Source of the DNA: Bacteroidota bacterium
Lineage (GTDB): Bacteria > Bacteroidota > Bacteroidia > Bacteroidales > JACABE01
Length of the DNA: 64,000 nucleotides
Assembly (NCBI GenBank): GCA_013377005.1
Contig: JACABE010000001.1
Coordinates: 211,307 to 275,306, forward strand
Direction: 5' to 3'
Under the pieces are notes generated by a model. It searched no databases and had not been told where the DNA came from. It saw only the letters and a program-made list of their open reading frames with translations. The position numbers were made by a program, and so were the translations under genes. Of this stretch, positions 25,114-63,323 are shown in pieces. Every line of letters starts with the position of its first letter. Position 1 is the stretch's first letter.

Positions 25114-25978
25114 ATTTGGTGATTTGGTGATTTGATGATTTATTGATTTTGCTTTTTTCTTTGAGTTGCAAAGCAGATTTTGCATTTAAAGAGCTTACCA
25201 CCTTTTTACCGGTTTGTGCTTCCAGTTCCTTTCTGGCTACTTTTGCAACATTGCCTCCTTGTTTTGCCACCTTTTTACTGTCTTCAAAAGTTTCAGGATT
25301 TACAGCAGCAGAAATATCTTTGGTAGAAGCCTCTGCAAGCATATTTAAAATGAGTTCCGTATTGGTCATGTTATCCCTGAGATTTTCTTTTTTCAAACCT
25401 TTCAGAATCTTATATTCTTTGGTCGTTTTATCCGACCATGCTTTGGTAATTATATCAGTAAGTGTAGCAAATTGAACCCCTTCTTTTAGACCTCTTTTCT
25501 TCCATTCATCCGTTAATTCTTTACGAATCTCAATACTCTTTAGCCGTTGATTTATCCAGTTTTCAGAATAACCCAGTTGCAGATATTGCTCCAAAGCCCT
25601 GTCGATTGTTAGTTCGGGATCCTGCATTTCGTCTAATCTTTCGGAGGCAATTTTTGCCAGCCAAAGTTTAAATGGTTCTGCCTTTGGTGATGGAATACTT
25701 TGTATTAATCTGAATACTTGTTCAGTATCTGCTACATCGGTTAAATAATATTTTCCATCAGCTGATTGCATTTTCAGTTGTCCCATATCTTGGGACAACT
25801 GACTTCCTTCATCGGAAAGCTTCTTTTTTAAAGCATTCCAATATTTTCGTGCTCTTGGACTTTCAGTTAAAACTTCAATCACATCAACTATCGAAAAATA
25901 CCATTTTTCATGCTCCGCATCCCACAAAGTGCGAACTTTCTTTTCTTCAAATATTTTTATACGGTCCTGTTTTTCCAT
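25103..25978 (-). CDS. BRO-family (phage antirepressor-like) protein
   Basis: 291 residues. The N-terminal region (residues 8-110) matches the Bro-N domain: KVRTLWDAEHEKWYFSIVDV, then YLTDVADTEQVFRLIQSI and EPFKLWLA. Bro-N domains occur in phage and mobile-element antirepressors and probably bind DNA. The second half is helical, with NMTNTELILNMLAEASTK and a lysine-rich end. The last codons run into a simple repeat and overlap the 3' end of the convergent btuG-like gene by 11 bp. A -7 box lies 46 nt upstream of the start. No other phage genes are nearby. Confidence 0.85.
   Translation of the reverse strand: MEKQDRIKIFEEKKVRTLWDAEHEKWYFSIVDVIEVLTESPRARKYWNALKKKLSDEGSQLSQDMGQLKMQSADGKYYLTDVADTEQVFRLIQSIPSPKAEPFKLWLAKIASERLDEMQDPELTIDRALEQYLQLGYSENWINQRLKSIEIRKELTDEWKKRGLKEGVQFATLTDIITKAWSDKTTKEYKILKGLKKENLRDNMTNTELILNMLAEASTKDISAAVNPETFEDSKKVAKQGGNVAKVARKELEAQTGKKVVSSLNAKSALQLKEKSKINKSSNHQITKSTS
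25113..25150. repeat. Short degenerate repeat encoding the BRO protein tail
   Basis: GATTTGGT/GATTTGAT units repeat four to five times at 7-8 bp spacing. On the minus strand they encode the last residues of the BRO protein (NHQITKS-type). Simple repeats of this kind are common between genes in Bacteroidota, so the protein tail was probably created when its original stop codon was lost. Confidence 0.6.
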
Positions 25979-26031: not shown

Positions 26032-26142
26032 ATTATTTTTCTCTGGAAATACTGATAAAATGATTAAGTTTTTCCTGAATAGAAAGAAAGGCGGATTATA
26101 AAATAATACAATTGGGGAATATTAATATCTACTTCAATTTGG

Positions 26143-26352
26143 AAGTACCTCCTCCAATCTGTTGGAAGACCTACTTCAGTTTGCAAGTGCCTCCTCCAAT
26201 GCGTTGGAAGAGCAACATCAATTTGCAAGTACCTCCTCCAATGCGTTGGAAGAGCAACATCAATTTGCAAGTGCCTCTTCCAATCCGTTGGAGACGTAAC
26301 ATCAATTTGCAAGTGCCTCCTCCAATGCGTTGGAAAGGCAACATCAATTTGC
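26143..26352. repeat. Five exact-length 42-bp tandem repeats
   Basis: Units start at 26143, 26185, 26227, 26269 and 26311, each 42 bp, and a sixth breaks off after 26353. The inner units are nearly identical. Each contains the small inverted repeat TCCAATGCGTTGGA and the segment ATCAATTTGCAAGT. Both strands stay open across the array because 42 is a multiple of three, but no start signal or codon pattern supports a gene. The remainder of the gap (25979-26142 and 26354-26506) shows only the BRO promoter. Confidence 0.92.
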
Positions 26353-26506
26353 AAGTAATTCTATCAATAATCTGTAAGGCTTTTTTAAAGGAAGATTCTG
26401 CTATTTAGCTGATTAACTGAATGAGTATTTAAATTTGATATTGTGCAGCTATAATCCTGAAAGCACTGTTTTGTTTTGCCAAAGGATATTTTAAAAGAGC
26501 TCTGGA

Positions 26507-27292
26507 TTATTTTTTAAAGATGTTTTGATTATGAAAATTTAAAAACTCTTTTGAAGGAAGGAATTTGTCAGGAAGCGTAATTGGTTTATTTTCAAATGCA
26601 ATAAAATTGTAATCAATTGCCGATGTGATGGTTTTACTTTTTAATAAAGGCGATAATTTTATTGTATAATCATTTGGTGAAATTGTTATTAAACCAGTAT
26701 CAAAAGCTTTATCATGCAATGCATTTAAACAAAGTCCATTCATTGGATTAAGTCTGTTTTTCTCGTCTTTACTCCATGGAATTATATGGCTAGCAATTAA
26801 TAATTCAGAATTTTCGATACCTGTTATGCAACAACGATTGTTATAAGTTGCTAATATTATATTTCTAAAAATAGATTGATTTACTCTTGTCTTTACAATT
26901 CTTTCTTTCTCAATTCCATCTTTAGGTAAATTATCTAAATCAATATTATTAATCTTTTCAATTGAGGAATTATTCATATTGGCTAATAATTGCTCACTTT
27001 GAATCAGAGCTTTATCCCAATTTTGATAAAATTCATCCCAAATATCTTTATCAAGTTTACTGGCATTGGTTGTGCCTTTTATACCTCTTTCTTTTAAACT
27101 TGGGTCAAAACTTGCTAAATTCCCTAATTTAAAAGTAACAGAAGAGGGAGTTCTTCCAATAAGATTTGCAAATTCAATAATTAAGGGATTGCGATGATGC
27201 ATTTTTCCAAAAGGAATTTTACAATAAAGATTTATTGCTAAAATTAATTCTTCACGTGTCCAGAGTTTTTGACCTTGCTTCATTTTTATCAT
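26507..27292 (-). CDS. HNH endonuclease (restriction-like)
   Basis: 261 residues. The C-terminal half carries an HNH fold of the PF13391 type: Cys-Cys-x-Thr-Gly (NNRCCITGI), ASHIIPWSKD, and NGLCLNALHDKAFDTGLI. The N-terminal half starts LWTREELILAINLYCKIPFG and continues to GRTPSSVTFKLGNLASFDP, an arrangement common in uncharacterised HNH nucleases related to restriction enzymes. The first of two close ATGs is annotated. It overlaps the upstream zinc-finger gene by 41 bp. No methyltransferase lies nearby, so a modification-dependent nuclease or orphan defence enzyme is possible. Confidence 0.85.
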   Translation of the reverse strand: MIKMKQGQKLWTREELILAINLYCKIPFGKMHHRNPLIIEFANLIGRTPSSVTFKLGNLASFDPSLKERGIKGTTNASKLDKDIWDEFYQNWDKALIQSEQLLANMNNSSIEKINNIDLDNLPKDGIEKERIVKTRVNQSIFRNIILATYNNRCCITGIENSELLIASHIIPWSKDEKNRLNPMNGLCLNALHDKAFDTGLITISPNDYTIKLSPLLKSKTITSAIDYNFIAFENKPITLPDKFLPSKEFLNFHNQNIFKK

Positions 27293-46463: not shown

Positions 46464-47954
46464 TTACTGCAACATTTTCAGGTAAGAAACTTCTTTTTCT
46501 GAAAGAAAACGCCACATTCCACGAGGAATATCTTTCTTGGTCAATCCTGCAAACATAGTTCTGTCGAGTTTTACAACTTCATAGCCCAATGTTTCGAAAA
46601 TGCGACGAATTACGCGGTTTTTTCCTGTATGAATTTCAATACCAATTTCCCTTTTGTTTTTCCCCTCGTCTATATAAGCTACATCATCCACTTTTACAAT
46701 ACCATCTTCTAATTCTACACCATCCCAAAGCTTTTCCATATCAGATTTTGATAAAGCACGATCCAATTCTACATGGTAGAGTTTTTTCACGCCATAACGA
46801 GGATGAGTAAGCTTCTTGGCTAAATCACCGTCATTAGTAAAAAGTAATAAGCCGGAAGTATTGCGATCGAGTCTGCCGACCGGGTACAAGCGTTCTTTGC
46901 AGGCATCTTTTACCAAAGCCATTACAGTACGGCGTTCCTGTGGGTCTTCAACAGTAGTGATATAGCCTTTGGGCTTGTTGAGCAACACATATTTCTTTTT
47001 TTCGCTTATCAAAGTTTCGCCACCATATTGAACAGAATCGGTAGGTAATACCTTCGTTCCCAATTCAGTAATAATTACTCCGTTGATTGAAACGGCACCA
47101 CTTACAATTAAATCATCAGCTTCGCGGCGTGAGCAAATTCCTGCATTGGCAATAAATTTGTTTAAGCGAACAGGTGCAAAGATATCAGGACGGTTAGTGC
47201 TTTTAAAGTTTTTTAATTCGAGTACATCGGCACGTTTCGGACGTTCGCGAACCGGTAAATCTATTTCAGAAGTTCTTCTGCGGGGTTTGTTTTTGTGAAG
47301 ATAGCGATCGTTAGAAGCATCATTATCATAGCTTCTTCTTTTTTCAGAAAAAGGTCTGTCATCTTTCACATATCCTTTTTTATAATCTCTGGTAGCGTTT
47401 GGATTTTCTCCAGCAACACCTTCTCTTCTGGGTTTAAAATCAGTTTTTTCACCTCTGTCACTATACGAAGGTTTGTTGTCTCTGTTTACAAACTTAGGTT
47501 TGAAAGATGATGCTTCTCTTTTTTCACCGTAATTAGGTTTGTCTTTTCGGTCTTGATAAGAAGGTCTTTCTGATGACTTATTATCTCCTTCACTGTATCT
47601 TGGCTTATTGTCTCTGTCATTGTAAGTAGATTTGTTGTCTCTGTCATTGTAAGTAGATTTGTTGTCTCTGTCATTGTAAGTAGATTTGTTGTCTCTGTCA
47701 GCAAATCTGGGTTTAAACGAACTTTCTTTTCTATCGCTGTAGTTCGGTTTATCACTTCTATCGCCATAAGATGTTTTGCTGTAAGGTTTTTCGTTATTAT
47801 TGAACTTAGGCTTAAATGAAGATGATGATCTTTCGGGTTTGGCTGAGGTGTCAGTTCTTTTTTTATAATCGGGTTTTGAAAAATTAGATGAACCTTCTGA
47901 GCGTCTGCTTCTTTCCGGTTTTCCAAAAGAGCGGTTATTATTATTTCTTTCCAT
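46464..47954 (-). CDS. RsuA/RluB-type rRNA pseudouridine synthase with long disordered N-terminus
   Basis: 496 residues. The first 250 or so are low-complexity and highly charged (Arg, Lys, Asp, Ser, Asn, Tyr), with YNDRDNKST repeated almost perfectly three times. An S4 RNA-binding domain follows (RLNKFIANAGICSRREADDL, about residues 260-280), then the synthase core with catalytic Asp in GRLDRNTSGLLLFTNDGDL. It isomerises a specific uridine in 23S or 16S rRNA. N-terminal extensions of this kind occur in Bacteroidota RluB-like proteins and probably bind RNA. The -7 box TACCTTTG (47984-47977) lies upstream. Confidence 0.9.
   Translation of the reverse strand: MERNNNNRSFGKPERSRRSEGSSNFSKPDYKKRTDTSAKPERSSSSFKPKFNNNEKPYSKTSYGDRSDKPNYSDRKESSFKPRFADRDNKSTYNDRDNKSTYNDRDNKSTYNDRDNKPRYSEGDNKSSERPSYQDRKDKPNYGEKREASSFKPKFVNRDNKPSYSDRGEKTDFKPRREGVAGENPNATRDYKKGYVKDDRPFSEKRRSYDNDASNDRYLHKNKPRRRTSEIDLPVRERPKRADVLELKNFKSTNRPDIFAPVRLNKFIANAGICSRREADDLIVSGAVSINGVIITELGTKVLPTDSVQYGGETLISEKKKYVLLNKPKGYITTVEDPQERRTVMALVKDACKERLYPVGRLDRNTSGLLLFTNDGDLAKKLTHPRYGVKKLYHVELDRALSKSDMEKLWDGVELEDGIVKVDDVAYIDEGKNKREIGIEIHTGKNRVIRRIFETLGYEVVKLDRTMFAGLTKKDIPRGMWRFLSEKEVSYLKMLQ
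47608..47698. repeat. 27-bp in-frame tandem repeat inside the pseudouridine synthase gene
   Basis: Three essentially identical 27-bp units start at 47608, 47635 and 47662, with a partial fourth. Each encodes nine residues (YNDRDNKST). Perfect repeats like this can change copy number by slippage without shifting the frame. Confidence 0.92.
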
Positions 47955-51378: not shown

Positions 51379-51636
51379 ATAATAAAAATTTGATTTTTAT
51401 AAAGTTAACCCAAATAAAAATTTGAAATTAATAAAAATTTAATTATCTAATTATCTTGCTTAACAAATATATTTTTATATTTTTGTTCTTTATTTAGAGT
51501 TAAATTTTCATACAACTACTCATCATATTCATTTTTAATAATTTAAGAAACAACAGATAACGTATGGGATAAAGTAAGCTCATTAAATTATAAAAAAATT
51601 ATGAAGAAAGTTAAAATATTTTTAGCCTCATCGGCA
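51379..51636 (+). repeat. Duplicated promoter and first codons of the 51601 gene (right, intact copy)
   Basis: Matches 48135-48384. Together the copies are 250-bp direct repeats flanking the ABC/GntR operon (48385-51378). This copy leads into the complete 51601 gene. The 51326-51600 gap holds nothing else except the promoter noted separately. Confidence 0.88.
51456..51485 (+). promoter_or_regulatory. Promoter of the nine-gene TIR-like/TPR/RyR operon
   Basis: TTG (51456-51458), 19-nt spacer, TATTTTTG (51478-51485): a close fit to the Bacteroidota promoter. The leader before the ATG at 51601 is about 110 nt. No comparable promoter was seen at the short gaps further down the operon, except that the 92-nt gap at 56401-56492 could hold a weak one. 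Confidence 0.7.
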
Positions 51637-52734
51637 GAATTAGATGATGATAAAGAAAAGTTTGAACTATTTATCAGTAAGAAGAATAAAGATTTATTTG
51701 AAAAACGTATCTTTCTTGAACTGAACACTTGGAAAGATTTTATAAGTTCAATTCAGGAAGTACGCACTCAGGATGAATACAATCTCTATATCAGAAAAAG
51801 TGATATATCTGTATTTTTATTTCATACAAAAATAGGACGATTTACACGTGAAGAATTTGATAATGCTCACAAGGCATTTCTTTCTTGTAAACATAATTTT
51901 TCTTGTAAACATAAAAATAAAACACCCCGAATATATACTTATTTCAAAAATAATAAAGAAGAAACTGCTGAGATAAGCAATTTCAGAGACCATATTGACT
52001 CATTAGATCATTTTTACGATTCATATGATGATTTGAATGATTTGTTTGTAAAATTTGGTCATCAACTCGACAAGTTAGAGAATGAAGGTAGAATCATAAA
52101 ACCAGATTCAATTGATTCTGGAAAAATTATAAAATACACTATATATTATTTTCTTCTGCCTCTTTTAGTTATGAGTGGTGTTTTCTTTTCAAATTACTAT
52201 TTTCAGACAACTAGTTTGACTGTGAAAACTTTCGAAGTACCGACTTATTCCATTCAAGGTTTACCATTAAAAGAAGCAAAAGTCACCATTATGTATGGAG
52301 AAAAGTCAGAAACAAAGTCTTTCAATGAAAAAGATGGTTTTGCTCCTTTTACTCAAATACCTTCACAATATAAGGGAGATTTCGTGAAACTTCATTTTGA
52401 AGCAAAAGAATATGTATCAATAGACACCTCAATTGATCTGAATCGTTTCCAAAATAGTGTAATTACCCTACCAGTCAAAAGAGACAATTCATTAGGTTTT
52501 ATTTCTGGAATTGTGAGAGATGAAGATGGGATTCCAATAAAAGACGTTTCTATTTCTGTCAATAATATTGAAGTAATATCAGATGGCAATGGAAAATTTG
52601 AAATTTCTATACCTTTCAAAAAACAAGCCGAGCAACAAAGAATTAGAGCATTCAAAGTTGGTTACAAAATGGTTACTTACGATATTCCTGTAATTCCAAA
52701 TGTTGAAGTACCTATTAAACTTAGAAAACAATAA
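51601..52734 (+). CDS. TIR/DUF4062-like domain, membrane helix and extracytoplasmic beta-sandwich protein
   Basis: 377 residues in three parts. Residues 1-150 form a Rossmann-like domain starting KKVKIFLASSAELDDDKEKF, with later SDISVFLFHTKIGRFTREEF and RIYTYFK; the layout resembles TIR- or DUF4062-type domains in prokaryotic conflict proteins. A membrane helix follows (YTIYYFLLPLLVMSGVFFSN, about 182-201). The rest holds two beta-sandwich segments, the second (GFISGIVRDEDGIPIKDVSI) a carboxypeptidase-regulatory-like domain. The predicted topology places the Rossmann domain in the cytoplasm and the sandwiches outside. First gene of the operon; enzymatic activity not established. Confidence 0.72.
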   Translation: MKKVKIFLASSAELDDDKEKFELFISKKNKDLFEKRIFLELNTWKDFISSIQEVRTQDEYNLYIRKSDISVFLFHTKIGRFTREEFDNAHKAFLSCKHNFSCKHKNKTPRIYTYFKNNKEETAEISNFRDHIDSLDHFYDSYDDLNDLFVKFGHQLDKLENEGRIIKPDSIDSGKIIKYTIYYFLLPLLVMSGVFFSNYYFQTTSLTVKTFEVPTYSIQGLPLKEAKVTIMYGEKSETKSFNEKDGFAPFTQIPSQYKGDFVKLHFEAKEYVSIDTSIDLNRFQNSVITLPVKRDNSLGFISGIVRDEDGIPIKDVSISVNNIEVISDGNGKFEISIPFKKQAEQQRIRAFKVGYKMVTYDIPVIPNVEVPIKLRKQ

Positions 52735-52741
52735 AATAACT

Positions 52742-53764
52742 ATGAAAATTAAGAAACAATTAATTGTCTTTATTTGGGGATTATGTCCATTAATCCTTAT
52801 CGCACAAGATTACCAATCAGGATATGTTTTTGAGATTAACTCAGATAATAAACCCATACCAAATGTAGAGATTATCGCACTTAAATCATCAATCGCGAAT
52901 AGCGATGATGATGGACATTTTAGATTAGCTTTTAGAAATAAAAAAGGGGGAGAACCAATATTAATTGATCAGATCAATAAAAAAGGGTACGAGTTAGTAA
53001 ATAAGGAAGATGTTCAAAACTGGGTATTTTCAATGAAATATCCAGTTAAAATCATAATGTGTAAGGAGGGGCTTTTAGCCGAAAGTAAAAGAAAATACTA
53101 TAATATCGGAAGCGATTATTACAAAAAAAGATACGAAGAAAGTATTGCTGCGAAAAAAAAGCAGCTCCAAAAGAATAATATTACTCAACAAGACTATTTG
53201 AAAGCAATAGATGATGCAAATCAAGAATTGAAAAAGAGCCAGGAAAATCTAAATTTTTATGTAGATAAATTTTCTCGGATCAATAAAGACGAACTTTATG
53301 GAACAGATAAGCTTGCCATTCAGCTATTAGAAGAGGGAAAAATAGATGAAGCAATAATAGTTTATGAAGATTCAAAAATACTGGAAACATTCATAGAAAA
53401 ACTAAAGCAAAGAGATAATGCAAGTTATAATCTAAGAGTTATGGCTCCTCTTTTATTTAATCAAGTAGATTTACTTATTCAAAAAAATGACATGTATTCT
53501 CACATGAAAGCTGACTCTATCTTACATGCAATTGCAAAATCTGATACACTTAACACTACTTACACGAATAAATATGCTTTGTTTCTAATGAAAGAGGAAA
53601 ACTATTCAGAATCTTTTCTCTGGTACAAAACAACACTTCTTTCAGCCAAAACAGAAGAACAAAAAAAACAAATACTGAATGATTTGAATACTCTTTATTC
53701 AAAAATTGAAGACAATGGTTTAATTGAAAAATATAAATATCAGATTGATAATCTAATGAAATAA
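52742..53764 (+). CDS. Exported protein: carboxypeptidase-regulatory-like domain plus helical repeats
   Basis: About 340 residues from the ATG at 52742 (an ATG at 52700 lies inside the upstream gene). Signal peptide up to LCPLILIAQ. The beta-sandwich (residues 22-95) includes PNVEIIALKSSIANSDDDGHF and ends IIMCKEGLLAESKRKYYNIG. A coiled, Lys/Gln-rich stretch and TPR-like helices follow (GKIDEAIIVYEDSKIL). It shares its order of parts with the two larger proteins downstream and looks like a shortened paralogue. It starts 7 nt after the TIR-like gene. Confidence 0.75.
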   Translation: MKIKKQLIVFIWGLCPLILIAQDYQSGYVFEINSDNKPIPNVEIIALKSSIANSDDDGHFRLAFRNKKGGEPILIDQINKKGYELVNKEDVQNWVFSMKYPVKIIMCKEGLLAESKRKYYNIGSDYYKKRYEESIAAKKKQLQKNNITQQDYLKAIDDANQELKKSQENLNFYVDKFSRINKDELYGTDKLAIQLLEEGKIDEAIIVYEDSKILETFIEKLKQRDNASYNLRVMAPLLFNQVDLLIQKNDMYSHMKADSILHAIAKSDTLNTTYTNKYALFLMKEENYSESFLWYKTTLLSAKTEEQKKQILNDLNTLYSKIEDNGLIEKYKYQIDNLMK

Positions 53765-53775
53765 ACTTCTCCAAT

Positions 53776-56400
53776 ATGAAAATTTCAATTATTATATTTG
53801 CTATTTTTCTTTCAGTTGTTTGTCATTCACAAACAGCACAAAAAGGACGTGTATTGGAAAAAGATTCACATGGAACTCCAATTGAAAATGCAGAAATAGT
53901 TGTTAAGAATGCTGTGCCTGCTGTTAGTGGAACAGATGGTAAATACAAATTGGTGTTTAAAAATAAAGCAGCGGGTGAAATGATTTTTGTAGATTCAATC
54001 AGTAAAAAGGGATACGAATTAGTAAACGAACCTCAAATCAAGGATTGGATTCTGTCAGACAATAAAGATTTCAATATTATTCTTTGTAAAAAAGGATTAT
54101 TAAAGAAGAACCGAGAAATTTTTTACAAAATAGGGAAATCTCGATATGAAAGGGAATACAAACTTAAACAAACAGAAATAGAATCATTAAAGCAAACCAA
54201 TAAATTAAACGAATCAGAATATAATAAAAAGCTGAATGAGATATACAATGAGCGGCAGAAAGCATTTGACTTGCTTGATTATTATACTGATTTGTTTTCA
54301 CGGATTAACAAAGATGATTTATCTGATATAGAACGAAAAGCGTTTGATTTTTCTGAACAAGGAAAAGTAGATGAAGCAATTAAAGTTTATGAAAATGAAA
54401 AACTACTAACAAAGTTCATTAAAAATGATTCTTTGAAACAACAAGTTAATACAGATTTAGAGAAAATGGTTCCTTCTCTTAGAATGTATGCAGAGTTATG
54501 TGTATTTGCTGGAGGTGAAGAAAATTATGAAAAAGCTGGAAGGTGCTATAAAGCAATTGTAACAAGTGATACTAATAATTATAAAAATGTATTTGATTAT
54601 GCAGTATTTTTAGATGTTATTGCTCAATATAAAGAAGCTTTGTGCTATTTTAATCTAGCTTTAAAAATTAGTAGTAATAAATTCGGATTGAAAAGTTTTG
54701 AGGTTGCATCAACATCCAATAGCATAGGGATTTTATATAAACATTTGGGAGACTATACAAAAGCATTGGGATACCTTTTTGAAGCATTAACAATTAGTGA
54801 AAAAATATTTGAACAAGAACATTCTGTTGTTGCTTCTATGTTTAGCAACATTGGTTGTGTTTATGATGAGCAAGGAGACTATACAAAAGCATTGGAATAC
54901 TACTTCAAAGCTATAGCAATCCAAGAAAAAGTATTTGGAAAAGAACATACTGATTTAGCAGTTTCATACAATAACATTGGGAGAGTTTGTGATGAGCAAG
55001 GAGACTATACAAAAGCATTGGAATACCACTTCAAAGCATTAATAATTTTCGAAAAAGTATTGGGAAAAGAACATCCTGATGTAGCAACTTCTTATAACAA
55101 CATTGGTAGTGTTTATCATGAACAAGGAAGCTATCCCAAAGCATTGGAATACTACTTCAAAGCCTTATCAATCCAAGAAAAAGTATTTGGAAATGAACAT
55201 CTTGATGTGGCGGCTTCTTACAATAATATTGGTGGTATTTATGAAATTCAAGGAGATTATTCAAAAGCTTTAGAATATTACTCAAAAGCTTTAACTATTA
55301 AAGAAAAAGTATTGGGAAAAGAACATCCTGATGTAGCAACTTCTTATAACAACATTGGTAGTGTTTATCATGAACAAGGAAGCTATCCCAAAGCATTGGA
55401 ATACTACTTCAAAGCCTTATCAATCCAAGAAAAAGTTTTTGGAAATGAACATCCTGATGTAGCGAAATCTTATAATAATATTGGTGTCGTTTATGAGAAG
55501 TATGGTGAATATGAAAAAGCATTGGAATATTATTTTAAAGCTTTAGTTATCGATGAAAAAGTATTAGGAAAAAAACATCCTGAAGTAGCAACTCTATATA
55601 ATAACATTGGTTATATTTATGAAAATCAAGGAGACTATTCAAAATCAATGGAATATCACTTGAAAGCGTTAGCTATAAATGAAGTATTATTTGGAAATGA
55701 ACATACTAATGTTGCAATTTCTTATAACAATATTGGAAATGTGTACGATAAACTAAGAAACTATCAAAAAGCATTGGAATACTACTTTAAAGCGTTAGCT
55801 ATCAGAGAAAAAATATTTAGGAATGAGCATCCTTATTTAGCGGAATCATATAACAATATTGCTATTATTTATTATTACCAAGGAGATTATCCAAAAGCAT
55901 TGGAATACCACTTTAAAGCTTTAGTTATTAGAGAAAAATTATTTGGAAATGAACATCCTGATGTGGCAACTTCATACAATAATATCGGGAGTGTTTATAA
56001 TAAGCAAAGAGACTATCCTAAAGCATTGGAATACCAATTCAAATCCTTAGCAATCCGAGAAAAGGTTTTAGGGAAAGAACATTTTGAGGTAGCAACTTCT
56101 TACAATAATATTGGTATTATTTATTATTATCAAGGAGACTACACAAAGGCATTAGAATATTATTTCAAAGTATTGAAAATATTGAAAAAAGCATTTGGAA
56201 AAGAAAACCATCCAAATATAGCAACTTCATATAGTAATATTGGTTTCGTATACTTAGAGCAAAAAGACTATCCAAAAGCATTGGAAAACTATAACAAAGC
56301 TCAAGAAATTTCAGAAAAGGAATTAGGGAAAGATCACCCATTTACAAAAGAAGTAAACGATAAAATAAAAGCGATAAAAGCACTAATAGTATCTCATTAA
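53776..56400 (+). CDS. Exported protein: carboxypeptidase-regulatory-like domain plus 13-14 TPRs
   Basis: 874 residues. Signal peptide to about VVCHSQ (residue 19). The beta-sandwich (20-110) begins KGRVLEKDSHGTPIENAEIV and ends IILCKKGLLKKNREIFYKIG. A coiled-coil stretch follows, then from about residue 310 an array of 42-residue kinesin-light-chain-type TPRs with the consensus HPDVATSYNNIGxVY and DYxKALEYYFKALxIxEKV. I count 13 to 14 units, several almost identical at DNA level. Such arrays bind other proteins; export suggests a periplasmic sensing or scaffolding role next to the outer part of the TIR-like protein. Confidence 0.85.
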   Translation: MKISIIIFAIFLSVVCHSQTAQKGRVLEKDSHGTPIENAEIVVKNAVPAVSGTDGKYKLVFKNKAAGEMIFVDSISKKGYELVNEPQIKDWILSDNKDFNIILCKKGLLKKNREIFYKIGKSRYEREYKLKQTEIESLKQTNKLNESEYNKKLNEIYNERQKAFDLLDYYTDLFSRINKDDLSDIERKAFDFSEQGKVDEAIKVYENEKLLTKFIKNDSLKQQVNTDLEKMVPSLRMYAELCVFAGGEENYEKAGRCYKAIVTSDTNNYKNVFDYAVFLDVIAQYKEALCYFNLALKISSNKFGLKSFEVASTSNSIGILYKHLGDYTKALGYLFEALTISEKIFEQEHSVVASMFSNIGCVYDEQGDYTKALEYYFKAIAIQEKVFGKEHTDLAVSYNNIGRVCDEQGDYTKALEYHFKALIIFEKVLGKEHPDVATSYNNIGSVYHEQGSYPKALEYYFKALSIQEKVFGNEHLDVAASYNNIGGIYEIQGDYSKALEYYSKALTIKEKVLGKEHPDVATSYNNIGSVYHEQGSYPKALEYYFKALSIQEKVFGNEHPDVAKSYNNIGVVYEKYGEYEKALEYYFKALVIDEKVLGKKHPEVATLYNNIGYIYENQGDYSKSMEYHLKALAINEVLFGNEHTNVAISYNNIGNVYDKLRNYQKALEYYFKALAIREKIFRNEHPYLAESYNNIAIIYYYQGDYPKALEYHFKALVIREKLFGNEHPDVATSYNNIGSVYNKQRDYPKALEYQFKSLAIREKVLGKEHFEVATSYNNIGIIYYYQGDYTKALEYYFKVLKILKKAFGKENHPNIATSYSNIGFVYLEQKDYPKALENYNKAQEISEKELGKDHPFTKEVNDKIKAIKALIVSH
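55051..55185 (+). repeat. TPR-encoding duplication, unit A
   Basis: About 135 bp virtually identical to 55303-55437, exactly 252 bp (two TPR units, 84 codons) further on. Such near-identity among otherwise diverged repeats points to recent duplication or gene conversion inside the array. Confidence 0.9.
55303..55437 (+). repeat. TPR-encoding duplication, unit B
   Basis: Second copy of the 55051-55185 segment, in the same frame of the TPR array. Confidence 0.9.
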
Positions 56401-56492
56401 TTATTAAAGTATAAAAGATAATAATATAATAAAATTTAATTTTAAAATAATGTATAACAAATACAGACTAAAAACAATAAAAATCATATTAA

Positions 56493-59198
56493 ATGAATTA
56501 TAAACTACTTCTTCTAATTCTTCTTTTTTTTCAAATAACGATAAATAGCTATTCACAAACTATACAGAAGGGTCGTGTACTTGAAAAAGATTCACATAGA
56601 ACTCCAATTGAAAATGCTGAAATTGTGGTTAAAAATGCTGCACCTGCTAATAGTGGAACTGATGGAAAATACAAATTGGTGTTTAAAAGAAAAACACAGG
56701 GAGAAATAATTTTTGTAGACTCAATTTGCAAAAAAGGATATGAATTAGTAAACGAGACACAAATAAAAGATTGGATTCTGTCAGACATAAAAGATTTTGA
56801 TATTATTCTATGCAAAGAAGGTTTATTAAAGGAAAGTCGAGAACATTTCTATCATATAGGTAAATCGCACTATGAGGATGAATTTAAGCGGAAGAGCTCT
56901 GAAATAGTATCGTTAAAACTTGCAAATAAAATATCAGAAAATGAGTATAACAAAAAACTAAAAGAAATATTAGATGAAAAGCAAAAATCAATCGAACAGT
57001 TGAATTATTATTCTGATTTACTTTCCCGCTACAATACAGATGACTTATCTGAAATAGAGCAAAAGGCTTATCAATTTTCAAAAGATGGAAGAATTGATGA
57101 AGCTATTCAAGTTTATGAAAATGAAAAACTACTAACAAAGTTCATTAAGAATGAATCTTTGAAACAACAATTTAATACTGATTTAGAAAGTATGGTGCCT
57201 TCGATTAGGCGGTACGCAGAGTTATGCGCATTTGCTGGAGGGTATAATAACTATGACAAAGCAAGTGAATGCTATAAAGCAATTGCATTAAGTGATACGA
57301 CAAATTTCGATTATGTTTTTGATTTTGCATTATTTTTAAGTACAGAATGGAACCATAATGATGCAATAAAGTGGTATAAAATAGCATTGAGGTATGTTAA
57401 AAATAATTATCAAGATGCTAATGTGTTAAATTTATTGGCAGTGTCAGAGTATTATATGAAGTTATATAGTGACGCTCAAAAAAATTACATTTTATCATTA
57501 GAATTAAGTAAAAATACTAAATGGATTAATAATATTTCTCTTAAAGCACGAACTCTTGACAATTTAGGAGTATTATATCAAACATTGGAACAATACGACA
57601 AAGCAGAAATGTATCATTCCGAAGCTTTAGGAAATTATAAAAAAATAGTTCAAAGTAATCCTACTTTATCAAATAAATATGATTTGGCTAAATGCTTAAA
57701 TAATTTTGCAACATACTATCATAAAATAGAACAATATAAATATGCTGAGGATAATTTTATTAAATCTATTAACATTTACAAAGAATTGGCAGATTCTTTA
57801 CCAGACACATACTGTGGAGATTTAGCAGATGCTTACCACAGCTATGCTTTTCTTTTACAAGATACAAAACAATACGAGAAAGCTGAAAATAATCTCTTAA
57901 TTTCATTAAATTTATTTAGTAGTTTATGTATTAAAGATGATCATAATTTTCGTAATGTTGCTCTTTCTTATAAAGATTTAGCAGAATTATATATTAATAT
58001 TGGTCAATATGATAAAGCCGAATTAAAACTACAATTTATTACTGATAATTATAAAAAGTGGTGCAGTGATGGTGATTTGGCAATTATATATAATTTAATG
58101 GGAATTGCGAAAAAAAAATTGGGAAAATACAATGAAGCCTTATTTAATTACAATGAATCTTTAATACTTAAAAAAGAATGGCGCAATTCAATTGATAATG
58201 AAGAAAAATACAATTATTCAGTAACTGTTAATAATCTTGGTGTTCTTCTATATGAAATACAAAATTATGATAGTGCTGATATTAACCTAATTGAGGCACT
58301 TAATATTCGAACAGAATTAGAAAAAGCTAACAAGGCAAAATATGTAACTTCTATTCTTGAGACTCTTAGCGATATTATTTCATTAAAGATGAGAGTTAAT
58401 CAATACAAACAGGCTGAAATTTATATTGACAAAGAACTCGATATTTACAGAGAATTATCAAAAATATATCCCTCAAAATATAAATCAATTTTTGCAAGCA
58501 TACTTTTTAATGCATCTACTAATTATTTTGAGATGCAGTTTTATGAAAAAACTATTGAGGTTTTAAATGAAGACTTAGGAATAGTTAAACAACTGGCGAA
58601 AAATAACCCTGAAAACTATAATGAAGATATACCAATGATATTAATCAATATTGCAAATCTGAGATATTCTTTAAGACAATTTGACCAAGCACAAAAAACT
58701 TACATAGAAGCTTTAGATAATTATAAAAGTTTTGCCAAAACTGATCCAATTAAATATGATACATTAATAGCTGAATTATTAAATACTATGGCATGGATTT
58801 TTTATAAAAACAACCTTCCTAAAGCCATTTCTAATGCACTTGAGGCTATTAAATTATATAATAGCTTAATTCTAAATAATCCAGATTTAAAATCTAAATT
58901 ATCAATATGCATGGCGAGGATGTCTCGTTATATGATAATTAACCATCAGTTTTCTGAAGGAGAAAGATATGCAAATAAGTCAATTGAAACTAATAATACA
59001 ATTAATTCCAGTTATAAGAATCTTGCTCATTCATTATTGTATCAAGGAAAATATCAAGATGCCTTAAATCTTTATACTAAAATTAAAAGTGACGTTTCAT
59101 TAAAAACTCAAATTTTATCTGATTTTGATGAATTTGAAAAAGCCGGAATTACCCATCCAGATGTTCTAAAGATAAGAGAAATATTAAACAATAAATAA
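56493..59198 (+). CDS. Exported protein: carboxypeptidase-regulatory-like domain plus diverged TPR array
   Basis: 901 residues. Signal peptide to about ITINSYSQ (residue 22). The first 230 residues closely follow the upstream 874-residue protein: KGRVLEKDSHRTPIENAEIV, GYELVNETQIKDWILSD, and NEKLLTKFIKNESLKQQ. The remaining 600 residues are TPR-like, but far more diverged (LDNLGVLYQTLEQYDKAEMY, INIANLRYSLRQFDQAQKTY). The conserved N-terminus and free C-terminal array suggest paralogues with a common docking part and different ligand sets. A 92-nt gap precedes the gene. Confidence 0.83.
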   Translation: MNYKLLLLILLFFQITINSYSQTIQKGRVLEKDSHRTPIENAEIVVKNAAPANSGTDGKYKLVFKRKTQGEIIFVDSICKKGYELVNETQIKDWILSDIKDFDIILCKEGLLKESREHFYHIGKSHYEDEFKRKSSEIVSLKLANKISENEYNKKLKEILDEKQKSIEQLNYYSDLLSRYNTDDLSEIEQKAYQFSKDGRIDEAIQVYENEKLLTKFIKNESLKQQFNTDLESMVPSIRRYAELCAFAGGYNNYDKASECYKAIALSDTTNFDYVFDFALFLSTEWNHNDAIKWYKIALRYVKNNYQDANVLNLLAVSEYYMKLYSDAQKNYILSLELSKNTKWINNISLKARTLDNLGVLYQTLEQYDKAEMYHSEALGNYKKIVQSNPTLSNKYDLAKCLNNFATYYHKIEQYKYAEDNFIKSINIYKELADSLPDTYCGDLADAYHSYAFLLQDTKQYEKAENNLLISLNLFSSLCIKDDHNFRNVALSYKDLAELYINIGQYDKAELKLQFITDNYKKWCSDGDLAIIYNLMGIAKKKLGKYNEALFNYNESLILKKEWRNSIDNEEKYNYSVTVNNLGVLLYEIQNYDSADINLIEALNIRTELEKANKAKYVTSILETLSDIISLKMRVNQYKQAEIYIDKELDIYRELSKIYPSKYKSIFASILFNASTNYFEMQFYEKTIEVLNEDLGIVKQLAKNNPENYNEDIPMILINIANLRYSLRQFDQAQKTYIEALDNYKSFAKTDPIKYDTLIAELLNTMAWIFYKNNLPKAISNALEAIKLYNSLILNNPDLKSKLSICMARMSRYMIINHQFSEGERYANKSIETNNTINSSYKNLAHSLLYQGKYQDALNLYTKIKSDVSLKTQILSDFDEFEKAGITHPDVLKIREILNNK

Positions 59199-59200
59199 CC

Positions 59201-60079
59201 ATGCTCAACTCCCAAGACTTTATCCACCCCGAAGACGAAGCTGCACGTCGGAATATGGAAGCTATTCCAGGTTTTAGTTCAGTAGTTAAAGCATTCTTAA
59301 AGTTGGGAATGGAGCAATATTTTCATGGTGTAAATATGGCTTCAAAGATAAGATTATCCGAGAAACAACTACCTGAAATATATTTTAAGCTGCAACCAAT
59401 TTGTAAAGTGCTAGGAATTGAAGAACCTGAATTTTATTTAGAAATGAATCCAATGCCCAATGCATATACATTTGGAGATTCACGTATATTTTTAACTATC
59501 ACTTCTGGCTTGGTAGAATATCTGGAAGAAGACGAATTAAATGCGGTAATAGCTCACGAATGCGGTCACATATTATGCAGGCATGTTTTGTATCATACCA
59601 TGGCTAACTTACTAAAATCGGGAGCAGATTTTATAGGTTTATTGGGTGCATTAACTACTCCAGTACAGTTGGGATTGTTATATTGGAGTCGTAAAAGTGA
59701 ACTTTCAGCCGATAGAGCTGCTGCTGTTATAATGGGTTCACCCAAACCGGTTGTCGAAACAATGATTCGTCTTTCAGGAGGTCCAAAAAGCATTACCGGA
59801 GAAGTCAATATCGAAGAATATGCGGCACAGGCACAAGCCTATCAGGATTTGCAGGAAACAAAATGGGATAAAGCTTTACAAACTTTAGCTATTGCTTATC
59901 AGGATCATCCATTCTCTGCTGTACGTGCAAAGAATATTCTTGAATGGTGTAAAACGGATCATTTTGCATTATTAATAAAAAATCTAAATAATACTGAATC
60001 AAGAAATCAATGTCCATATTGCCAAGAAACTATTCTAAAAGAATGGAAATTTTGCAAATATTGTGGAGAGAAAATCTAA
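59201..60079 (+). CDS. M48-family metallopeptidase with C-terminal zinc ribbon
   Basis: 292 residues starting 2 nt after the TPR gene. The zinc-protease motif HExxH is in AVIAHECGHILCRHVL (about residues 115-130), and the third ligand Glu is in SRKSELSADRAAAV. A hydrophobic stretch (residues 140-165) may insert into the membrane. The end (CPYCQETILKEWKFCKYCGE) is a four-Cys zinc ribbon, unusual for secreted M48 proteases and suggesting cytoplasmic location or partner binding. No signal peptide. It may process other operon products. Confidence 0.88.
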   Translation: MLNSQDFIHPEDEAARRNMEAIPGFSSVVKAFLKLGMEQYFHGVNMASKIRLSEKQLPEIYFKLQPICKVLGIEEPEFYLEMNPMPNAYTFGDSRIFLTITSGLVEYLEEDELNAVIAHECGHILCRHVLYHTMANLLKSGADFIGLLGALTTPVQLGLLYWSRKSELSADRAAAVIMGSPKPVVETMIRLSGGPKSITGEVNIEEYAAQAQAYQDLQETKWDKALQTLAIAYQDHPFSAVRAKNILEWCKTDHFALLIKNLNNTESRNQCPYCQETILKEWKFCKYCGEKI

Positions 60080-60124
60080 CTATAAGTTATCAAAAAAATA
60101 TTTATTCAAAACTAAGTAAAAGCT

Positions 60125-60619
60125 ATGGGAGTATTTAAGAGTTCAAAAACATTTTACTATTCAACTTCAATAATAGGTGGAATAGTTAGATATCTGAATG
60201 AAGAGTTAATCAAAGAAGGTTATGAAGTAAGTATTCATAATCTTTTATCTGGTGGAGCAGATATTTCAATTACCAAAGGCAATATCTTTAAAGCTATTGT
60301 AGGTATGAGAACAGCACTAAAAATTGTTATCCAGCCAATAGACAATCGGTCGTTTACTGTAGAAGCAGGAGTTGGAATATTTGGGCAGCAAGCTATTCCA
60401 ACAACTCTTACTTTATTGGTTGCATGGCCTGTGTTAATTCCTCAAATATGGGGTATGATACAACAATCGAAACTTGATGAGCATATACTTGAATTAGTTC
60501 AAAAAGCTATTGATATTCATAAGTCAGATTCAAATAAAACCACACAATTTTGTCCTCAATGTGGATATGCAATGAATGAAGGAGCTAAGTTTTGTGGGGA
60601 ATGTGGGGTGAGACTATAA
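60125..60619 (+). CDS. Zinc-ribbon protein
   Basis: 164 residues. A compact N-terminal alpha/beta part is followed by a hydrophobic segment (IPTTLTLLVAWPVLIPQIWG, about residues 88-107) and a C-terminal zinc ribbon CPQCGYAMNEGAKFCGECG. The ribbon closely resembles that of the metallopeptidase encoded just upstream, which suggests both bind the same partner. No further family assigned. Confidence 0.75.
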   Translation: MGVFKSSKTFYYSTSIIGGIVRYLNEELIKEGYEVSIHNLLSGGADISITKGNIFKAIVGMRTALKIVIQPIDNRSFTVEAGVGIFGQQAIPTTLTLLVAWPVLIPQIWGMIQQSKLDEHILELVQKAIDIHKSDSNKTTQFCPQCGYAMNEGAKFCGECGVRL

Positions 60620-60649
60620 TCTAAAACTAAAAACAGAAAATATATAGCA

Positions 60650-60988
60650 ATGAACAACAAATCCAATTGGAACTATCAGGAATTTAAAATTTATCTTCTT
60701 TTATATGCATGTTATGCAGATTTTGAATTAAAAGAAGAAGAAAGACAACTTATTCTTACAAATACATCCAATGAAGAATACAATCATATACACAAAGTGT
60801 TTAAGAATGATTCTGACTTTGAAAAGATTGAAAGTATTCAATCTTTCAGAGAAAGGTTTTTCTCAACTCAAAAGGATGTAGATATGCTTTTAAAAGACAT
60901 AAGTGTAATTTTGAACATAGATGATGATTTCAATCTATTGGAAAAGAATTTTTTCAGAATGCTTTGTAAAATACTTCAAAATAGATAA
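60650..60988 (+). CDS. TerB-like small helical protein
   Basis: 112 residues, all predicted helix. The N-terminus (YLLLYACYADFELKEEERQLI) resembles the first helices of TerB-like domains, where acidic residues often bind metal, and the end is FFRMLCKILQ. Similarity is by pattern only; it might instead be an unrelated helical protein. It lies in the middle of the operon with gaps of 30 and 54 nt. Confidence 0.55.
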   Translation: MNNKSNWNYQEFKIYLLLYACYADFELKEEERQLILTNTSNEEYNHIHKVFKNDSDFEKIESIQSFRERFFSTQKDVDMLLKDISVILNIDDDFNLLEKNFFRMLCKILQNR

Positions 60989-61042
60989 ATTATTTAGGTT
61001 TATAAATAACAAAAAAGTCATCAAATAAATAAATTTTAGGTT

Positions 61043-63022
61043 ATGGAAATATGTCAATTTTGGGAAATCTATCTACCCATTCTTTATGGTTTAATGCTGT
61101 TTTCTATTTACTATTTTCTGTTTTTACGAAAAGGGAAAAGGTTTATAAGTTTTGTGAAGTTTCCATTGGCACTTTTCACATTTGTTATTGGTTTTGTAGT
61201 ATATTATATTGGACATTCAGAATTTGAGCATGCTCATAAACTAATAACGAATGTATTATTGGCGTTTTTTTCAACTTGCCGTTTATTTGTGTTAGGTAAC
61301 GATTTAGTAGAAATGAAGGATACTGTTAAAAGTTGTCCTGCATTTATGATATGGTTTTCAATTGCTGCCTCATCTGCAGCTATCGTTTTTCTTTCATTCT
61401 TGCTTAATATATTTGGAAAGGGAATACTTACTTTTTTTAAAATCAAGTGGAACCGTTCTAAAGAGAATTATATATTCTTTGGGGTGAATGAAGCCTCTGT
61501 TTCATTGGCTGAAGATATGATTAAGACAAAAGCCTCCCGTTTGATTGTTTTTGTAAAACATATAGATGTAAATGAGAATGAGTCATTGTATGATAGAGCC
61601 GAATTGACAGGAGCTTTGCTGAAAAGCAGAAAATCTATATTAGATTATTTATTGGTGAAAAATGAAGAAAGTATTATCCATCCACATATTGAGGACACTA
61701 CTTCTGCTAAAAAGATTTTTATCAATAGTGATTATTTGAGCAAGTTGAAATTACTTAAAAAACTAAGATTGCGAACTTCTCACATGTTCTTTCTGACAGA
61801 AAATGAAGATATAAATATAAGATCAGCTAGATCGGTGATAAATGAACTCAATGGATTGAATCTTCAGGAAGATATTACAATACATATACGGACTTTATTG
61901 GAAGATGTAGAAAATTTATATTTTGATAGTTTTACAAAAACTTCACCTAAAATTGCTATACGATTTTTGAATGATTCTGATATAGTCGCACGACAGTTAG
62001 TCAATGCACATAATCCTGTTGATGATAATTGGATTAAAAAAGATGTTGACAAAGGAATTGCAACCTCTGACTTTAATATAATGCTTATTGGATTTGGGCA
62101 AACCGGAATTTCAGTTTTAAAAAGACTTGTTGAATTTGGTCAGTTTGTAGGTTCTGAATTTAATGCAATTATCATCGATAAAGCCATGAATTCTAAAACC
62201 GGTAGTTTTAATAACCGTTATCCAGGTTTAATTTCAAATTATAATTTCGACTTTGTAGAAACAGAAGTAGGGAAAGTAGAATATTATGAATTAATAAAGA
62301 AAAATCTTAATGAACTTGACTACTTAATAATTACATTGGGTAATGATGCTCTGAATGTTCAGGCCGCATTTGATATTCAGCAATTGGCAAGAAAAATATC
62401 AGATAGACCCTTGAAAATACTGGTTCGTTTGAATGATAGTTACGCTTATGACAATCTGTTTCAATCAACTGAAAATATTTCTATTGAAATTTTTGGCAGA
62501 GAAAAAGATGTATTTACTGAAGATATAATAATTCGTGCCAGTCTTGAAAAAACAGCAAGAAAAATACATACTTATTACAATGCACAGTCTGATCCATTAA
62601 AACGTCAATCATGGGATCAACTATCCAGAATTAAGCAATTGTCGAATATATCTGTTGCAGAACATATTCACACAAAACTGGCTCTTGCAGGACTGACGAT
62701 AGCAGATGTAAAACAAATTGGAAATAAAGAACAATTCATTCTAAAAATAGGAGAAGAACGATTGTTAAACATTGCTAAAGGAGAACATCTTAGATGGAAT
62801 GCACATCTTTTTGCCAATGGTTGGGTTGAATATAAACTAAACGAAATTCCTGATAAAGCAACATCGAACAAAAACGAAATTAAGAAACTTCATGCATGTC
62901 TTGTAAGTTGGGATCAACTTTCAAAAGTCAATAAGCGTTTTAATGAAGATTATTATAAATACGACAGGGAAAATGTCACCAATATTTTCGAATTGATAAA
63001 GAATGGAATATATACAGAGTAA
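61043..63022 (+). CDS. Membrane protein with TrkA-N-like and RyR-like domains
   Basis: 659 residues. Four hydrophobic segments lie in the first 135 residues (near 8-27, 36-58, 68-88 and 103-127). Two Rossmann-like segments follow: YIFFGVNEASVSLAEDMI (about 147) and IMLIGFGQTGISVLKRLVEF (about 350), the latter like the TrkA-N/RCK NAD-binding fold. The C-terminal 90 residues (NIAKGEHLRWNAHLFANGW ... LVSWDQLSKVNKRFNEDYY) fit the RyR domain pattern. The shape is that of a ligand-gated membrane protein, possibly a channel, but no selectivity filter is recognised. Confidence 0.75.
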   Translation: MEICQFWEIYLPILYGLMLFSIYYFLFLRKGKRFISFVKFPLALFTFVIGFVVYYIGHSEFEHAHKLITNVLLAFFSTCRLFVLGNDLVEMKDTVKSCPAFMIWFSIAASSAAIVFLSFLLNIFGKGILTFFKIKWNRSKENYIFFGVNEASVSLAEDMIKTKASRLIVFVKHIDVNENESLYDRAELTGALLKSRKSILDYLLVKNEESIIHPHIEDTTSAKKIFINSDYLSKLKLLKKLRLRTSHMFFLTENEDINIRSARSVINELNGLNLQEDITIHIRTLLEDVENLYFDSFTKTSPKIAIRFLNDSDIVARQLVNAHNPVDDNWIKKDVDKGIATSDFNIMLIGFGQTGISVLKRLVEFGQFVGSEFNAIIIDKAMNSKTGSFNNRYPGLISNYNFDFVETEVGKVEYYELIKKNLNELDYLIITLGNDALNVQAAFDIQQLARKISDRPLKILVRLNDSYAYDNLFQSTENISIEIFGREKDVFTEDIIIRASLEKTARKIHTYYNAQSDPLKRQSWDQLSRIKQLSNISVAEHIHTKLALAGLTIADVKQIGNKEQFILKIGEERLLNIAKGEHLRWNAHLFANGWVEYKLNEIPDKATSNKNEIKKLHACLVSWDQLSKVNKRFNEDYYKYDRENVTNIFELIKNGIYTE

Positions 63023-63032
63023 TAAATTAAAA

Positions 63033-63323
63033 ATGAAATTAAGCTATAAACCGCTACCAGTTATTTTGTCAATGCAAAGTATTCCAAAAGAACTCTATGA
63101 GCTGATTGAGAAAATGGCTCAAAATGTTCATGAAGAGTGGGCAGAAGGAAGAATTCGGGAAGGATGGAAATACGGCAAAAAACGTAATGATATCAAAAAA
63201 GAAAATCCCTCACTTGTTCCGTATAAAGAACTTTCTGAATCTGAGAAAGAATATGACAGAAGAACAGTAATTGCTTCAATAAGTTATTTGATTGATAATG
63301 GATTTGAAATCAAAAAAGTATAA
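63033..63323 (+). CDS. Stand-alone RyR domain protein
   Basis: About 96 residues from the ATG at 63033, 10 nt after the stop of the previous gene (an ATG at 63003 would overlap it). Nearly the whole protein is one RyR domain (PF02026 type): MAQNVHEEWAEGRIREGWKY, then PSLVPYKELSESEKEYDRRT. The match to eukaryotic ryanodine-receptor repeats is strong. The function of bacterial RyR domains is unknown; ligand binding is suspected. Last gene of the nine-gene operon. Confidence 0.88.
   Translation: MKLSYKPLPVILSMQSIPKELYELIEKMAQNVHEEWAEGRIREGWKYGKKRNDIKKENPSLVPYKELSESEKEYDRRTVIASISYLIDNGFEIKKV

Follow-up and report, generated by a model that had tools for sequence, protein, structure and literature searches.

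TPR paralogues as candidate variable sensors of a putative transmembrane NADase-family signalling operon in a Bacteroidales genome

In Thoeris the effector reads a signal of the cyclic ADP-ribose (cADPR) type made by a TIR enzyme. We compared with this and other described systems an operon of nine plus-strand genes at 51601-63323 of a 64,000-nucleotide stretch of DNA (hereafter the window; positions 211,307 to 275,306 of contig JACABE010000001.1) from the 92-contig draft assembly GCA_013377005.1 of a Bacteroidota bacterium of the order Bacteroidales. Two of its genes encode paralogous tetratricopeptide repeat (TPR) proteins of 874 and 901 amino acids (aa). The initial annotation had described both with coordinates and lengths that we confirmed, and it overlooked that they are part of a conserved multi-gene cassette. 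In our reading, which we believe and doubt in equal measure, they serve as the variable sensors of an operon for transmembrane NADase signalling, probably in abortive defence. The operon resembles Thoeris in having a TIR or TIR-like enzyme and a domain of an ADPR-ligand family together; a membrane tail, TPR sensors and a RyR/TrkA_N protein are, to our knowledge, no features of Thoeris. PADLOC ThsB models match the TIR-bearing relatives of the operon weakly and over short TIR stretches only, and a ThsA-type effector was not found with the PADLOC ThsA models among the nine window proteins (E 0.01) or among four downstream proteins of related loci L120, L132, L121 and L021.

DUF4062 proteins have been reported as TIR-like anti-phage NADases, and KpSwz depletes NAD+ and yields ADP-ribose (PMC13174449). 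The window effector shares with Swarozyc the DUF4062 family and a C-terminal auxiliary part, and its conserved glutamate may correspond to the one proposed to be catalytic there. However, Swarozyc consists of one protein, which binds a phage portal through its auxiliary domain (PMC13174449), whereas the window operon has a tailed protein with one transmembrane (TM) segment, TPR proteins encoded separately and an arm of RyR/TrkA_N type; beyond its N-domain the window effector consists of the TM helix and a beta-rich tail. A term search of the main text of the Swarozyc paper found none of TPR, transmembrane, periplasm and RyR. RyDEP, a phage protein of the RyR family (PF02026), surrounds its ligand with His, Trp, His and Asp, and phage RyR domains bind or cleave 2' and 3'cADPR immune signals (PMC13232231). 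RyDEP serves phage counter-defence as a glycosidase or sponge, whereas in the window a bacterial operon combines RyR domains with an NADase-family protein, and one of these domains is fused to a membrane protein of TrkA_N type. Diversifying NTP-dependent conflict systems also combine a constant core with fast-varying parts, TPR and TIR among them, but they are built on NTPase cores (PMC7159879), and no NTPase domain was found among the nine operon proteins at E 0.01. The parts of the operon are of known kinds. Their assembly, with one tail, exchangeable outputs, TPR sensors and a TrkA_N/RyR arm, was not found in the literature searched, which did not include a 2025 preprint on TIR-based systems (doi 10.64898/2025.12.03.692087) that may overlap with it.

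Operon limits were set by gene spacing, which runs from -20 to 92 bases with 52742 as the start of the second gene. The first gene (51601-52734) encodes a 377-aa membrane effector with a DUF4062-family N-domain, a TM segment at about residues 176-194 and a beta-rich C-terminal tail that ends in a carboxypeptidase-D-like domain. The second (52742-53764; the open reading frame (ORF) is listed from 52700, and the internal ATG at 52742 is the chosen start) encodes a 354-aa paralogue of the N-terminal heads of the TPR proteins, with almost no TPR array. The head-TPR proteins themselves follow at 53776-56400 (874 aa) and 56493-59198 (901 aa). Near the end of the operon stand a membrane protein of 659 aa that combines a TrkA_N-type with a C-terminal RyR-like domain (61043-63022) and a small RyR-domain protein (PF02026, 63003-63323).

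The tail is common to proteins with different outputs. In 16 aligned tails the output domain is DUF4062 five times, TIR nine times, C39-peptidase-like once and once a short domain without a Pfam match; by eye, the TIR glutamate is present in nine of nine TIR forms. The DUF4062-type genomes are the window's own, G001, G004, G466 and G483. G004 shows the exact order DUF4062 protein, head-TPR gene, TrkA_N/RyR protein and small RyR. In G466 and G483 the DUF4062 protein is followed by three and four heads, respectively, and by the channel-type protein, while the order in G001 is partly assumed because its cassette is spread over three contigs.

Heads and tails occur together. Our sample of the order consisted of 295 genomes, the window's own included, and the head profile at E 1e-10 matched 11 of them. 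A search with the TIR-type effector matched 15 genomes, 12 over the tail and three over the TIR part only. Each of the 11 head genomes also has the tail (Fisher p 4e-19; eight of eight, p 8e-15, without the three query genomes), although these p values come from genomes that are not independent draws, G506 and G685 for example belonging to one genus. In the twelfth tail genome, G602, the gene adjoining the effector is a weak head match (24%, E 1.9e-7). At the level of genes, a head gene is adjacent to the tail gene or one gene away from it in 14 of 16 cases.

The conserved tail of G543 (L122 849-2967) is joined to a C39-peptidase-like domain, and the gene after it encodes sigma-70 region 4, which would suit one sensor acting on proteolysis or on transcription. 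Pfam's assignment of these two domains, the peptidase to the L122 N-terminus and the sigma region to its neighbour, led us to discard an anti-sigma label for that N-terminus. G481 (L124 2663-3478) has just ~85 residues ahead of its TM segment, and at E 0.01 Pfam matched nothing in them. A 684-aa TIR protein with a long leucine-rich repeat array, an NLR-like pairing, is encoded at L137 3758-5812 in a genome of the same order. As to mobility, no relative was found in viral contigs. Four phage records matched with 24-28% identity, three from Wolbachia phages and the fourth lacking annotation, and eight plasmid records matched the TIR-type effector over at most 58% of the query, chiefly in its TIR part.

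The effector N-domain matched DUF4062 in a profile-profile comparison (probability 95.8, E 6.6e-9; controls at most 0.3). The DUF4062 profile was built on eight PF13271 sequences, as eight of 15 fetched loci were usable and the rest hit stops or were too short. Glu85 is invariant in all five DUF4062-type effectors and is a putative counterpart of KpSwz E97. Lysine and arginine are richer before than after the single TM segment, as in 13 of the 16 tail proteins. In a fold search on the predicted structure, the last tail domain matched carboxypeptidase D and SusC NTE domains (Z ~12), of which the heads are weak relatives by profile; the operon is without a carboxypeptidase or a TonB-dependent transporter. 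A TIR domain was absent among Foldseek's best 50 effector matches and from the Pfam scan of the window effector. Because the effector profile does not match the TIR profile either, we do not treat the DUF4062 and TIR outputs as homologous. A canonical PF13271 DUF4062 match lies elsewhere in the same genome (G000:C6:43983-44243, L166).

The RyR-like arm is conserved with the DUF4062 output. The profile of the 659-aa protein, built from three of the five DUF4062-type genomes (G466 and G483 did not contribute), matched seven of 16 genomes searched, strongly all five of DUF4062 type and weakly G537 and G635. Its C-terminus matched RyR by profile-profile comparison (probability 82.8, E 9.4e-6; 84.3 on a slightly different set), while alone it scored 12.6 bits against PF02026, for which the gathering score is 27.4; the small window RyR reached 97.6 bits. 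H582, W585, H617 and D641 are invariant in five of five channel-type proteins and align with the ligand residues His, Trp, His and Asp of RyDEP. The TrkA_N domain of the 659-aa protein scored 21.3 bits against a cut-off of 23.8 (E 3.5e-4); a label of two RCK domains had been given by eye and was set aside, as Pfam gives TrkA_N, weakly. No PDB channel was found by sequence for this protein.

RyR genes were detected in 24 of the 295 genomes, and more often with tails (six of 12 tail genomes vs 18 of 283 others, p 1e-4). Cassette and RyR gene are neighbours in five of the six RyR-bearing tail genomes, the exception being G602, where they are on different contigs. Full-length RyR matches numbered 18 in 16 genomes, and for 12 of them a relative of the TrkA_N-type proteins lies no more than two genes away. 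The RyR neighbour in G595 is an MscS-type channel by Pfam, and that in G007 resembles it by eye. Some TIR-type cassettes have distant channel relatives or an MscS-type channel. RyR-like C-termini in the neighbours of TIR-type effectors are not claimed, their probability being 2.5 against RyR and 18.8 against window-type channel ends.

How are the two TPR proteins related to each other? The initial annotation had them sharing about 230 N-terminal residues and differing in their arrays, which was borne out except that the shared head is closer to ~280 residues. Identity is 72% over residues 6-228; counted per 20 residues it stays at 0.55-0.90 through residues 21-280 and then drops to 0.15-0.45. 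In the head tree, read without row G466c, the three heads of the window fall into a single clade (support 0.988), and so do the four of G483 (0.983), so heads multiply or are homogenised within lineages. Head paralogues of one genome bear different arrays. The head had matches in five of 59 related genomes (own included), in G006 only in receptor-sized frames, and two of three congeners had no match. No orthologous TPR array was found among the 59 related genomes, in a first contig scan or in the order sample; this first scan, made with the head, gave no relative at all. A contig scan with the effector alignment gave five loci, two of them not independent of G004:C274 and G001:C75. A survey of the phylum with the head profile at E 1e-3 (226 of 395 genomes) was dropped, as most listed matches covered the first head part only, in SusC-receptor-like frames of ~700-1100 aa. 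With the Ig-like part removed, the head profile matched seven of 395 genomes including its own, the other six at E 1.6e-5 or weaker.

The arrays of the 874- and 901-aa proteins differ in kind and not in age alone. Both contain TPR_12/TPR_10 repeats, TPR_12 matching at E 4.7e-185 in the first and 1.3e-34 in the second. The first array is of the KLC type with a best lag of 42 aa, and its 126-bp units run in register from 54595 to ~56340 (12-13 copies by reported family). The diverged array of the second has its best lag at 46 aa, as have 12 of 13 head genes of G001, G004, G466 and G483, a value that is uncertain in some of these genes because their self-identity goes down to 0.10. The near-perfect 135-bp duplicate noticed earlier in the 874-aa gene proved to be identical over exactly 134 bp (55051-55184 and 55303-55436, plus strand) at a lag of 252 bp or two units; it extends to 151 bp if one mismatch is allowed and to 158 bp if two are. 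Outside this tract, 21-bp windows at the same lag are mostly 0.6-0.9 identical (range 0.48-1.00, one window at 1.00), and the tract is therefore bounded. Internal repeats were compared in 39 head-bearing genes from 28 loci, some cut by contig ends, and the longest exact repeat in the other 38 was 8-33 bp. With the reserve due to a draft assembly, the tract is a genuine recent copying event, and an exceptional one in its family since the next longest exact repeat is 33 bp. The suggestion that repeats are still being added or converted holds for this single tract in one of 39 genes. We think that it fits gene conversion or a partly eroded two-unit duplication better than a fresh clean duplication, for which 252 identical bases would be expected. 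A search of the genome for a donor returned, apart from the array itself, an adjacent stretch of its own gene and a single site of 53 bp.

Two other explanations of the tract have to be weighed. Exact repeats of about this size can be collapsed by short-read assembly, and the 134 bp come from an assembly in 92 contigs, so the true number of units may differ; yet each copy sits in differing unit sequence and the frame of 874 codons is intact, which makes an assembly artefact very improbable. Much more serious, with a chance only slightly under even, is that the copying was neutral: near-identical 126-bp repeats would have recombined by chance, purifying selection would keep the fold, and the variable positions would be unconstrained surface. 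For 55 pairs of 11 units of the 874 array, the median identity was 0.754, with synonymous differences (pS) at 0.45, nonsynonymous differences (pN) at 0.18 and dN/dS at 0.32, a value which agrees with such neutrality, as does the lack of comparable copying in the other 38 head genes. Against it, variation is strongly enriched at the TPR concave positions, which we take to be canonical positions 2, 5, 9, 12 and 13 (here unit positions 39, 42, 4, 7 and 8): mean entropy there is 2.08 vs 0.94 overall (permutation p 0.0006), for a class taken from the TPR literature and applied after the entropies were seen, and pN/pS at these positions (0.82 vs 0.26 at the remaining ones) is near that of unconstrained sites. 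In favour of neutrality, concave positions vary in TPRs generally. A class of other hypervariable positions (pN/pS 1.43) was set aside as circular, having been picked after viewing the data. The different arrays on head paralogues within one genome also speak against neutral copying. For the recognition surfaces under diversification that the initial annotation had proposed, the concave variation is suggestive, and it fits relaxed constraint equally well; the general variability of such positions and the median dN/dS of the array temper the proposal.

The sensor reading is strengthened by the operon context, namely the shared tail and the NADase-family output. Reports of DUF4062 NADases and of RyR domains acting on cADPR signals meet here in one operon with array proteins, and this led us to a signalling model. 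The head-TPR proteins are probably exported, judging by N-terminal hydrophobic segments seen by eye and not by a predictor, and their arrays would bind a trigger on the envelope side. The carboxypeptidase-D-like heads may engage the tail of the DUF4062 membrane protein, which would be periplasmic, and clustering would activate its cytosolic TIR-like domain, so that NAD+ is cleaved to an ADP-ribose-type product. The RyR domains would read this product or the loss of NAD+, upon which the TrkA_N/RyR membrane protein would open; the small RyR protein could be a buffer or hydrolase. Growth would then stop, probably as abortive defence. Together, probably exported repeat proteins, a membrane-anchored NADase-family enzyme and a RyR channel-like protein look like an outside-to-inside alarm circuit.

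The same genes allow other accounts. The effector might kill directly and without a second messenger, DUF4062 depleting NAD+ as in Swarozyc while the part of the RyR and TrkA_N proteins would be no more than to protect or re-establish homeostasis. This accords with the NAD+ depletion by KpSwz (PMC13174449) and with phage RyR proteins that can degrade or sequester signals (PMC13232231). We consider it somewhat unlikely, as the RyR-like domain sits in a conserved membrane protein of all five DUF4062-type cassettes, and RyR genes often lie near TrkA_N-type genes (the 12 of 18 full-length cases above). Envelope signalling outside immunity, in which the cassette would sense envelope stress, contact or a nutrient through its TPR proteins and would use NAD chemistry as an ordinary second messenger to tune metabolism or transcription, appears to us rather doubtful. 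Ordinary genes directly flank the operon, one tail relative with a C39-peptidase-like domain adjoins a sigma-70 region 4 gene, and no specific defence model marks the operon. On the other side stand the links of the DUF4062, TIR and RyR families with phage conflict (PMC13174449, PMC13232231), the patchy distribution (12 of 295 genomes) and the recent copying in one array.

A number of findings weigh against the transmembrane signalling operon that we prefer. PADLOC gave a generic TPR model (PDLC01169, E 1.8e-41, on the 874 array) and otherwise weak matches; none of its models marks the operon as a known defence system, and the 901-aa, channel-type and RyR proteins had no or marginal matches. 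The Pfam cut-off for DUF4062 is not reached, the family being unlisted for the window effector and found at E 0.2 for L119. The effector model has a mean predicted local distance difference test score (pLDDT) of 69 and a predicted template modelling score of 0.37. Its N-domain has mixed fold matches (nucleosidase, GTPases, flavodoxins and a SEFIR domain at Z 8.2), and because the SEFIR domain appears among unrelated folds, we base the DUF4062 assignment on the profile-profile match. The AlphaFold2 model of the 659-aa protein shows N-terminal helices at a pLDDT of 43.7 and was excluded from the fold search; owing to this poor model, a membrane pore and its gating are proposed from the sequence. 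The small RyR of the window retains all but one of the four ligand residues, with Asn in place of a ligand His that the other three share. G466 and G483 are outside the 24 genomes with RyR genes, and a profile search of the 16 genomes found no close homologue of the 659-aa protein in TIR-type cassettes. Finally, two tail genes lack a neighbouring head gene (L124, which lies at a contig end, and L132, beside a gene weakly similar to the 659-aa protein), and six head genes of G506 and G685 lack an effector in the stretch fetched (L128, L129, L131, L133, L134 and L136).

Three further genes lie between the 901-aa gene and the TrkA_N/RyR gene on the same strand. They encode an M48 family peptidase with a C-terminal zinc ribbon (59201-60079), a 164-aa protein, also with a C-terminal zinc ribbon (60125-60619), and a 112-aa protein (60650-60988) that has a relative in the TIR-type cassette of L121 (27%, E 1.7e-11) and is TerB-like by eye only. 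The M48 and 164-aa genes (59201-60619) are possibly a separate module; by eye they seem to recur in G601 (L186 7044-8755), beside an RyR fusion and a large ATPase-like protein. Small RyR genes have TrkA_N/RCK-like membrane proteins nearby in many settings outside the cassette (L176-L179, L182, L183, L185, L187-L189). Among these, L177 and L187 have the small RyR gene next to a different TIR-like protein, while in L188 and L189 RyR ends a longer protein behind a short gene that is sigma-factor-like by eye. Promoter-like sites numbered 88 vs 75.3 in shuffles (standard deviation 7.2) and terminator-like sites four vs 2.9 (2.2). Elsewhere in the window, a perfect 27-bp tandem repeat of 3.4 copies lies at 47608-47700 within the ORF 46464-47954, and a 42-bp tandem repeat of 5.3 copies at 26134-26356 between the ORFs 25103-25978 and 26507-27292.

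The cassette could also belong to an outside-in class of innate immune receptors, a wider proposal that we regard as a long shot. Interchangeable exported TPR arrays would sense envelope invaders, and a single shared periplasmic tail would pass this on to cytosolic outputs that are likewise exchangeable (DUF4062, TIR, peptidase-like). Where the output is an NADase, its nucleotide product would open a channel through the channel's own RyR domain, a bacterial counterpart of the axis from cADPR to the ryanodine receptor, and copying of units would renew specificity. 

A membrane-anchored DUF4062 relative whose separate sensors would sit outside the inner membrane could intervene when the genome enters or earlier. 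Since different output domains share one tail, the contact of head and tail would be a testable signalling standard. The TrkA_N/RyR protein would allow a direct test in bacteria of an old question: do RyR domains make channels respond to cyclic ADP-ribose-type nucleotides?

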